This document shows positions 11,455 through 44,610 of a stretch of 64,000 bases of DNA, one piece after another (within the stretch, counting starts at the first letter, position 1; the number at the start of each line of letters is the position of its first letter). The position numbers were made by a program, and so were the translations under genes. This DNA is from Sinomicrobium weinanense (lineage in GTDB: Bacteria; Bacteroidota; Bacteroidia; Flavobacteriales; Flavobacteriaceae). The stretch covers positions 124,001 to 188,000 of the forward strand of contig NZ_JAHKRR010000002.1 in assembly GCF_018863395.1 (NCBI RefSeq), in the 5' to 3' direction. Below the pieces are notes generated by a model. That model was not told the DNA's origin and searched no databases. It saw nothing but the letters and a program-made list of their open reading frames with translations.

Positions 11455-11568
11455 GGTGAGAAGGTGAGAAAGTGAGAAGGTGAGAACAGGTTTCCCCTCC
11501 TTTTTACGTTCTCACTCTCTCGCCTTCTCACTCTCTCACTTTCTCACTTTCTCACACTAACATATGCT
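11455..11568. repeat. GTGAGAAGG-type inverted simple repeat (family A, copy 1)
   Basis: Four tandem GTGAGAAG/AGTGAGAA units at 11456-11486 are mirrored after a short C/T-rich loop by TTCTCAC units at 11509-11556. The two arms can form a long stem. The right arm includes the last codons and TGA stop of the FAH-family gene. Related arrays occur at 20552-20603 and 30801-30838. Confidence 0.75.
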
Positions 11569-20551: not shown

Positions 20552-20603
20552 AATGTGAGAAGATGAGAAGGTGAGAAAGTGAGAGGATTAGAATGTGAAA
20601 GGG
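20552..20603. repeat. GTGAGAAGG simple repeat (family A, copy 2)
   Basis: Tandem GTGAGAAGATGAGAAGG and GTGAGAAAGTGAGAGG units begin within a few bases of the recQ start codon and lie in its 5' leader. They match the arms at 11455-11568 and 30801-30838. No mirrored arm is obvious here. Confidence 0.7.
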
Positions 20604-30800: not shown

Positions 30801-30838
30801 CATATCTCACCTTCTCACTTTCTCACCTTCTCACTTCC
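30801..30838. repeat. GTGAGAAGG simple repeat (family A, copy 3)
   Basis: Tandem CTTCTCAC/TTTCTCAC units lie in the gap after the DUF4126 gene and supply that gene's TGA stop codon. On the minus strand the gene ends as AAG TGA, directly followed by GAAGG. The same AAG TGA GAA junction is seen in the FAH-family gene at 11544. Confidence 0.7.
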
Positions 30839-43125: not shown

Positions 43126-43237
43126 ATCGTTTAAATAGACGATATTATGTATTATCGTGTTTTTAAACGATAACAAAACAAATCGTGTTTTAAGGCGATA
43201 TTTGCAAATATCGCTTTTTTAATAGATATTTGTGATA
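43126..43237 (+). repeat. Four 28-bp direct repeats with ATCG-N10-CGAT palindromes (operator-like array)
   Basis: ATCG starts at 43126, 43154, 43182 and 43210, exactly 28 bp apart. In the first three units it is followed after ten bases by CGAT; in the fourth by AGAT. The ten-base cores are TTTAAATAGA, TGTTTTTAAA, TGTTTTAAGG and CTTTTTTAAT. The fourth unit ends on the ATG of the SatD-like gene. Units three and four also carry GATATTTG, one mismatch from the -7 consensus, 28 bp apart. A perfect palindrome GCGATATTTGCAAATATCGC bridges units three and four. Confidence 0.85.
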
Positions 43238-43908: not shown

Positions 43909-44610
43909 ATGGTAATATTGCTAAAACTTTTACTCGCACACCTCATCGGCGACTTTATCCTGCAAACGGACCGCGGGGTTAAGGAAAAGGAAGAAAAAAA
44001 ACTGGCGTCCGGAAAATTATACCTGCATATACTGATCCATATCCTCCTTGTTTTCCTCTTTCTCTGGGACTCCAGGCTATGGTATGCAGCTCTTATCATC
44101 GGGGGTACCCACTTTATTATAGATGCCGCCAAACTACTGCTGCAAACCCCGAAGACCAAAAGACTGTTCTTTTACATCGACCAGTTGTTGCATCTGCTGG
44201 TCATTGTTGCAGTATGGTGCCTTATACAAGGATATATCCCGGCATTTTCCCTGTCCGAAAAACAGTTGCTTCTTCTTACGGGAGGACTGTTCCTTACCTT
44301 TCCTACATCCATTATCATCAAAACCACCATCTCTGTTTACACCCCAAAAACGGATCTGGAAAAGGATGATTCCCTGGAAAATGCGGGAAGGTATATAGGC
44401 ATTCTTGAGCGATTACTGGTCTTTATCTTTATCGCAACCGGCCATTGGGAAGGTGTTGGCTTTCTGATCGCTGCAAAATCCATTTTCCGTTTTAGCGACC
44501 TTACCCAGGCCAAAGACCGGAAACTTACCGAATACATTCTCATAGGCACCCTGCTGAGCTTCGGCACCGCCATTGTAGTAGCGATCGTATGTACTTCTTT
44601 CCTGCTCTGA
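43909..44610 (+). CDS. DUF3307 family membrane protein (SatE-like partner)
   Basis: The 233-residue protein has about six to seven membrane segments. Family features are AHLIGDFILQTDRGVKEKEE near the N terminus, GGTHFIIDAAKLLLQTPK near residue 66 and IAAKSIFRFSDLTQAKDRK near the C terminus. It is commonly encoded next to SatD-like proteins, as here. Function is unknown. It could be a membrane effector or transporter whose expression is set by the SatD-like protein. Confidence 0.82.
   Translation: MVILLKLLLAHLIGDFILQTDRGVKEKEEKKLASGKLYLHILIHILLVFLFLWDSRLWYAALIIGGTHFIIDAAKLLLQTPKTKRLFFYIDQLLHLLVIVAVWCLIQGYIPAFSLSEKQLLLLTGGLFLTFPTSIIIKTTISVYTPKTDLEKDDSLENAGRYIGILERLLVFIFIATGHWEGVGFLIAAKSIFRFSDLTQAKDRKLTEYILIGTLLSFGTAIVVAIVCTSFLL

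Follow-up and report, generated by a model that had tools for sequence, protein, structure and literature searches.

A Putative Autoregulatory Operator Array in Front of the satD-DUF3307 Genes of Sinomicrobium weinanense and Its Relatives

The satD gene of Sinomicrobium weinanense is preceded by an array of evenly spaced palindromes, which is most likely the operator of a satD-DUF3307 operon, with SatD as both its binder and its autorepressor; binding and repression are predictions. The evidence is computational and comprises the array itself, its conserved geometry, the covariation of its letters with SatD residues, its phase relative to the promoter and the linkage of satD to DUF3307. Coordinates refer to the window, that is, the whole stretch of 64,000 nucleotides that was analyzed, and the features are collected in Table 1.

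Table 1. Features of the satD-DUF3307 region in the window.
Feature	Position	Strand	Basis and remarks
Operator unit 1, ATCG-N10-CGAT	43126..43143		Sequence; pattern search; putative
Operator unit 2, ATCG-N10-CGAT	43154..43171		Sequence; pattern search; putative
Operator unit 3, ATCG-N10-CGAT	43182..43199		Sequence; pattern search; putative
Operator unit 4, ATCG-N10-AGAT, one half-site degenerate	43210..43227		Sequence; pattern search; putative
Predicted -33 element TTTG	43201..43204	+	Sequence; 20 bases 5′ of the predicted -7 element; between units 3 and 4
Predicted -7 element GATATTTG	43225..43232	+	5/6 to TAnnTTTG; overlaps right half-site of unit 4; phase preference in relatives
SatD-like protein, 209 aa	43237..43866	+	Cyclase/GGDEF-like palm ~1-120, C-terminal HTH, predicted specificity residues T176 and E179
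DUF3307 membrane protein, 233 aa, all-helical	43909..44610	+	Pfam DUF3307, PF11750

The Array Upstream of satD

The half-sites ATCG and CGAT alternate at positions 43126 (ATCG), 43140 (CGAT), 43154 (ATCG), 43168 (CGAT), 43182 (ATCG), 43196 (CGAT) and 43210 (ATCG), followed by the variant AGAT at 43224-43227; the array (43126-43227) is thus composed of seven exact half-sites and one variant, placed at strict 14-bp intervals in alternating orientation and forming 28-bp units. The preliminary description had reported ATCG four times at 28-bp steps, with CGAT ten bases on and AGAT in the last unit, and this is borne out by the sequence and by pattern search; its further statement that the array stops on the ATG does not hold, as the last half-site ends 9 bp 5′ of the satD start codon (43237). 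One pattern with 28 specified bases covers the seven exact half-sites without a mismatch, and in 100 shuffles of the window no match was found at three mismatches or fewer; the array score was 49.4, whereas 1000 dinucleotide shuffles gave at most 22.4. Palindromes inside the 18-mers and between them are both symmetric, and the choice of the dyad inside the 18-mers rests on its arms, which show the greatest complementarity at 8-10 bases.

A two-unit pattern with 0-1 mismatches was found exclusively 5′ of satD in all six genomes of the genus; in one of them (G003), one satD-promoter match has 2 mismatches. When 2 mismatches were allowed, one or two further places per genome appeared in these six genomes, versus 0-1 for the reversed control.

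Tandem Repeats Finder, run on the window, did not list the satD array, in which the half-sites alone repeat. The window also contains tandem repeats of an 8-bp unit, GTGAGAAN, at 11455-11486, 11509-11555, 20555-20602 and 30805-30836; a three-unit pattern with at most 2 mismatches matched the whole genome 39 times in forward and 69 times in reverse orientation (overlapping matches counted), against 0 for the reversed control, so that this unit is a dispersed repeat.

Conservation of the Geometry

SatD homologues were found by protein search in 31 of 60 relatives and in 218 of 397 genomes of the family. A first set of 112 loci combined 52 returned by the searches and 60 picked down the family listing (an incomplete selection, in which some with internal stops were omitted), and a second set of 103 loci combined the best 80 of 570 named relatives with 23 found by searching 149 class-level genomes; counting identical upstream regions once reduced the 215 loci to 201. 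The half-site is ATCGT in the genus Sinomicrobium, and elsewhere, by lineage, ATTCC, ATTAG, ATAAG, ATCAC, ATCAT, ATCTG or ATTAC; because the letters differ in this way, a search for ATCG-N10-CGAT alone would miss most arrays, and the fixed-letter search was replaced by one for the geometry with free letters.

In the 112 upstream regions of the first set, 4-mers recurred at lag 28 in 2381 cases against 184 expected by dinucleotide shuffles, and reverse-complement 4-mers peaked at lags 12, 14, 16 and 28. A scan of steps from 24 to 32 bp, performed on 28 of these loci, gave a high score at 28 only, and the array score exceeded the 99% point of the shuffles in 104 of the 112. Among the 201 unique loci, an AT-anchored array score above 14 was reached in 188, a value exceeded by 2 of 430 shuffles; the check proposed at the outset, namely a search for similar repeats in front of homologous satD-DUF3307 pairs, was therefore positive, with palindromes in 28-bp steps at these 188 loci. 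For the 13 loci having no 28-bp array by the AT-anchored score, the free-letter score recovered step 28 in two (L210 and L216) and was higher with step 29 in eight, some of them barely above shuffles. In distant Bacteroidota the arrays persist with different letters and a step of 28 or 29, the shuffles in this case covering step 28.

The 188 arrays contain three units in 102 cases, four in 58, five in 19 and two in 9, as counted by a search allowing up to five units. A side observation concerns locus L293, where satD is preceded by five near-identical 29-bp units with the palindrome ATAAG...CTTA(T), most of them followed by the promoter word TATATTTG.

Covariation of Half-Site Letters with SatD Residues

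Among all SatD columns, residue 179 shared the most mutual information with positions 3, 4 and 5 of the half-site, as calculated on 102 of the 112 loci; the runner-up was residue 175 for positions 3 and 5, and residue 176 for position 4. In the AlphaFold2 model, all three residues belong to helix 174-183, the predicted recognition helix. In phylogenetically disjoint pairs, taken from a tree based on DUF3307 and on residues 1-138 of SatD, the share of pairs that differ at residue 179 is 60% where the sites differ and 9% where they are the same, which is the widest gap of all columns, the different-site pairs being also the more distant ones (0.83 vs 0.64). Restricting the joint tree to its well-supported branches left independent switches that associated TC with K in 5/5 pairs, C[GT] with E in a mean of 5.5/7, [TA]A with Q in 1.6/5 and CA with small residues in 1.0/3; none was reversed, and these switches are few in number, with a best median p of 0.0625. 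The tree built from the SatD N-terminal domain alone gave just one well-supported pair per test, too few to be informative.

Over the 188 loci, the residues at 176 and 179 follow a simple code: A/K corresponds to TCC (44/52, with close variants in 7 more), T/E to CG (24/24), N/E to CTG (7/7), A/Q to [A/T]AG (21/21), A/R to TAC (17/17) and S/E to CGG (6/7). Rarer residue pairs are less regular, as for T/R, which is found with TAC once, with CAC twice and with others twice. When the letters were predicted by residues 176/179 from proteins less than 70, 60 or 50% identical (thresholds measured in the N-terminal domain), position 4 was correct in 167/169, 115/120 and 43/48 loci, respectively (accuracy 0.99, 0.96 and 0.90), and positions 3-4 in 144/169, 99/120 and 36/48. 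The nearest relative from the same pool (<70%) gave 117/182 for position 4 and 96/182 for positions 3-4; random column pairs reached, for position 4 at the three thresholds, a mean of 0.42, 0.32 and 0.27 and at best 0.67, 0.57 and 0.53.

Sixty-four further loci were fetched after the residue table had been made, of which eight repeat earlier proteins, leaving 56. A 28-step array was present in 27 of them, 19 exceeded 14 at step 29 only and 10 had neither; the shuffle maximum for step 29 was 19.1, and two of the nineteen step-29 loci (L292 and L306) are below it. The 28-step arrays comprise 24 with a tabulated residue pair and three with a new pair. The table, which permits more than one letter pair for some residues, fits positions 3-4 in 22 of the 24 (the misses are L268 and L276), eight of these tests being on A/R proteins, seven of which are 83-93% identical to earlier ones; among the fresh proteins less than 70% identical to any earlier one, 13/14 fit. 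Residue pairs shuffled among the 24 loci gave a mean of 9.0 fits, and at most 16 in 2000 trials.

Since the letters of the array covary with its own recognition helix, SatD is taken as the binder; the correlation indicates that SatD itself is very probably the reader of the array, controlling its own unit, and it supports the autoregulation by the SatD-like protein suggested in the preliminary description. Genomes with two satD copies are too few to support a claim of insulation between copies, namely G493 (L210/L216, with related half-sites), G607 (L224/L234) and G749 (L281/L282); another candidate, G079, was rejected, both matches being adjoining pieces of one interrupted reading frame.

Overlap with the Promoter

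The Bacteroidota promoter consensus is described as TAnnTTTG (-7) plus TTTG (-33) (PMC6847099, PMC2483708). TAnnTTTG is present in 128 of the 188 upstream regions, versus 23 for the reversed and 31 for the reverse-complement control, and in 137 of its 199 occurrences its first base coincides with the last base pair of the right half-site. A perfect -7 element at this phase (phase 17, on the right half-site) occurs in 93/188 loci and is absent there in 95/188; in 51 of the 93, TTTG lies exactly 20 bases 5′ of it. As to the window, the F. johnsoniae numbering (T-12 to G-5) would put the start of transcription at about 43237, with a nearly leaderless message; with the -7 copy at 43197-43204, the leader would measure about 28 bases.

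Operator and promoter appear interleaved, because promoters of this kind have a TTTG-to-TTTG distance of 28 bp, which is also the step of the array. An unlikely explanation is that the period is set by tandem promoters (TTTG-N20-TAnnTTTG, 28 from TTTG to TTTG) and that the palindromes are secondary; it would account for the exact 20-base spacing in 51/93 loci, for the matching N21 spacing in the 29-step array of L293 and for the occurrence of TAAATTTG beside the half-site in the Vibrio lentus and Salinivibrio plasmid copies. However, the half-site letters covary with SatD residues, 95/188 arrays lack a perfect -7 element at phase 17, and the array on the Vibrio lentus plasmid keeps the 28 bp outside Bacteroidota (51.0 vs 18.6), all of which counts against this explanation.

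Repression is preferred over activation because the right half-site overlaps the -7 element. Many regulators are known both to activate and to repress, and arrays of two to five units (in the search allowing up to five) go beyond what the occlusion of a single promoter needs, so that SatD might bind the array and activate the operon, or do both depending on a ligand, with distal units recruiting RNA polymerase; this is nonetheless improbable, as the in-phase overlap of a perfect -7 element with the operator in 93/188 loci and the end of the array at most 10 bp from the start codon in 71/188 both suit occlusion. That another regulator binds the array, SatD being a mere neighbor, is a view for which no positive evidence was found and is very improbable, given the accuracy with which residues 176/179 predict position 4 (0.99, 0.96 and 0.90, against no more than 0.67, 0.57 and 0.53 for random column pairs). 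Transcribed palindromes can form stems, yet a role as leader RNA hairpins in attenuation or stability is scarcely credible, since the stems would be of 4-6 bp with loops of 8-10, units 1-3 of the window lie upstream of the transcription start predicted from the -7 element, and neither the fixed direct-repeat step nor the covariation with the HTH would be expected.

Turnover of the Array

Two half-site classes, with at least two half-sites each, coexist in 27 of the 188 arrays, and about a dozen of these two-class arrays form clear blocks in one common 28-bp phase. Two-block arrays include L008, L041, L118, L140 and L159, in which the promoter-proximal block fits the SatD residues and the distal block looks like a relic, and L047, L130 and L133, in which the promoter-proximal units mismatch the protein and the distal block fits instead. 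In 84 of the 152 loci with enough flank, rmuC is found upstream of satD; this neighborhood is a shared chromosomal place where the letters still drifted, which counts against a purely selfish element.

The SatD and DUF3307 Proteins

The window SatD aligns over residues 5-184 to positions 4-195 of the 211 of the Pfam SatD model (PF16264), that is, over its full length, with 25.3 bits (E 1.4e-5), below the curated cut-off of 29 bits; in the phylum, PF16264 exceeded the cut-off in 10 of 61 genomes, one of which (G158) belongs to the family of the window. The C-terminal HTH-like segment noted earlier finds support in a Sigma70_r4-like match (E 1.2e-4, 22.0 bits, below the cut-off of 24.1) and in the helices predicted by AlphaFold2 at 163-169, 174-183 and 186-200 (pLDDT ~97; 95 for the model). 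Matches of SatD to HMG-box among PDB sequences (E 0.0022 and weaker, residues 150-209) and to PADLOC models (E 0.0019 in the HTH part, for a Sir2/Argonaute-type model, and E 0.028 for a homing endonuclease) were taken as chance.

With the modelled N-terminal part of SatD, Foldseek returned class III cyclases and GGDEF at the top, and also GTP cyclohydrolase III and the Cas10 palm; the top matches had a probability of ~1.0, a TM of ~0.4 and a best E of 1.7e-3, none reaching E 0.001. Asp8 and Asp45, each conserved in 200/201 SatD proteins, would represent the metal-type aspartate pair, an equivalence drawn from known sequence motifs. Positions 101 and 105, which we take to correspond to the transition-state Asn/Arg of class III cyclases, are mostly I/V/Q and E (143 of 201; R in 31), respectively, so that these residues are not kept. 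Because the Asp pair is kept and the transition-state residues are not, the predicted palm is likely to bind a nucleotide and classical cyclase activity appears doubtful; the nucleotide may be a ligand or a product of SatD. The open-licence literature searched describes neither DNA binding by SatD nor such an array, in agreement with the earlier statement that no such description was known for this family, and its papers on SatD mention no operator array or cyclase-like fold; PMC4886424, considered as a SatD description, was set aside, the paper covering DUF2652 cyclase-like proteins.

The membrane protein reported to follow is confirmed as DUF3307 (PF11750, E 4e-28, 98.4 bits, above the cut-off of 23). 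Its predicted structure is all-helical (pLDDT 91) and gave noise alone against the PDB (best E 0.23), with no fold match; against the PADLOC defence models DUF3307 had no match. In 55 sequences the residues H11, D15, H40, H44, H68, D72, D91 and H95 are invariant, a His/Asp pattern that suggests a metal-dependent membrane enzyme. DUF3307 is located 3′ of satD on the same strand in 112/112 loci of the first set and in 101/103 of the second; measured from the start of the satD stop codon, the distance to the DUF3307 start is up to 85 bases in the first set and 45 in the window, and stop and start overlap as ATGA in 73 of 101 second-set loci.

Plasmids, Other Phyla and Phages

Outside Bacteroidota, a SatD-like gene followed by DUF3307 is also present on plasmids, or records labelled as such, from Vibrio lentus (conjugative), Salinivibrio (two), Pseudoalteromonas, Enterobacter kobei, Sphingomonas insulae and Fusobacterium; within Bacteroidota, a Segatella copri plasmid carries the pair. 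The E. coli plasmid pEC34A (L238), of 3770 bp, encodes a SatD-like HTH protein and DUF3307, its other annotated genes being a short hypothetical protein, the Rop protein and mobA. It is a tiny mobilizable plasmid with the SatD-like protein and DUF3307 as main cargo, and DUF3307 is matched as well by five Klebsiella plasmids of identical length. Among the plasmid proteins, the one from Fusobacterium exceeds the Pfam SatD cut-off (53.5 bits) and those from Vibrio lentus and Salinivibrio costicola are below it; the E. coli, Enterobacter, Sphingomonas, Pseudoalteromonas and Segatella proteins have no Pfam SatD match, and their assignment rests on a first motif of GD[IL]/ADI type, on RGD[S/G][F/W]Q, on weak HTH matches in most of them and on the DUF3307 neighbor.

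The array of the Vibrio lentus plasmid is clear, with step 28 and a score of 51.0, versus 18.6 as the highest of 15 shuffles. More modest scores, still above 15 shuffles, were obtained at step 28 for pEC34A, Salinivibrio and Pseudoalteromonas and at step 29 for Enterobacter and Fusobacterium; the Sphingomonas upstream region gave no array score above 15 shuffles, and the Segatella array exceeds shuffles only with a start codon 3′ of the annotated one. On the Sphingomonas insulae plasmid (L242, 1075-4567), the pair adjoins an annotated Pycsar effector and an adenylate/guanylate cyclase on the other strand; DUF3307 is also found on two haloarchaeal plasmids.

Tblastn against phage records gave no match for DUF3307 or for the Vibrio SatD, and one match of SatD (E 0.09, residues 146-185 only) was dismissed as chance. 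The window DUF3307 matches the PHROG family phrog_2470 (membrane protein, category moron) with E 2e-15, and DUF3307 is named in a jumbo phage (PMC8504454); phages carry DUF3307 relatives.

Proposed Mechanism and Significance

According to the proposed mechanism, SatD dimers would place the recognition helices (174-183) of their C-terminal HTH on both half-sites of each 18-bp palindrome, neighboring dimers lying 28 bp apart (29 in some distant lineages) and binding probably in a cooperative manner, as the preliminary description had suggested. Residues 176 and 179 would select base pairs 3-5 of the half-site, which would explain why array letters and residues vary in concert. Given the overlap of the right half-site with the -7 element, SatD on its sites would exclude RNA polymerase and repress both satD and DUF3307. 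Both metal-type aspartates are conserved in the N-terminal palm, which probably binds, or else produces, a nucleotide controlling the formation of dimers or of the array-bound complex.

A bolder reading, possible if doubtful, sees in SatD-DUF3307 a widespread transferable switch: a nucleotide-sensing repressor of cyclase fold would polymerize on the 14-bp-spaced array and silence a membrane enzyme, the matched drift of operator and helix would insulate the copies from one another, as for a selfish or defence element, and a disturbance of nucleotides, e.g., by phage infection, would dissolve the polymer and free DUF3307.

SatD and DUF3307, for which the literature searched offers no mechanism, thus gain a testable role, with named putative sites, a promoter and two specificity residues. 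The arrays and their proteins form a naturally occurring set in which repressors and operators match in pairs and follow a simple recognition code; this set may be useful both for understanding how regulators change specificity without losing control and as a source of insulated repressors for use in Bacteroidota. Should the palm domain sense or make a nucleotide, a second-messenger fold would be linked directly to a promoter.

Comparison with Known Systems

The family to which SatD owes its name (PF16264) includes the product of the S. mutans sat operon, whose genes are linked with acid tolerance (PMC11323703); the window protein matches this model over residues 5-184 and differs in scoring below the curated threshold (25.3 bits against 29), and the Fusobacterium SatD, which exceeds that threshold with 53.5 bits, likewise shows an HTH-like stretch at its C-terminus and has DUF3307 as its neighbor. 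With class III cyclases, GGDEF, GTP cyclohydrolase III and the Cas10 palm, SatD shares the predicted fold and the two Asp; unlike class III cyclases, it mostly lacks the Asn/Arg at the corresponding positions and carries a C-terminal HTH after the palm. As in HTH autorepressors, a modelled HTH is accompanied by sites in the protein's own promoter that appear matched to its own helix.

Autorepressed toxin-antitoxin operons with repeated operators exist, and satD-DUF3307 resembles them in being a small two-gene operon with a predicted DNA-binding first gene, a frequent stop/start overlap and plasmid copies; in contrast to them, it has a chromosomal place beside rmuC in 84/152 loci. To our knowledge, no direct contact between the SatD and DUF3307 proteins has been described. 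A further likeness to toxin-antitoxin systems is that satD of S. pyogenes was essential in transposon screens and is yet accessory, being present in 178 of 249 genomes (PMC11323703).

Co-evolution of transcription factors and operators is described for the GntR and MerR families, where residues of the DNA-binding domain correlate with site letters (PMC4494728, PMC5045206). SatD likewise shows a correlation between residues and site letters; it differs in that most of its arrays repeat an equal palindrome three to five times with a constant step, in a promoter putatively under its own control, and in that many specificity switches are found inside one orthologous gene, satD.
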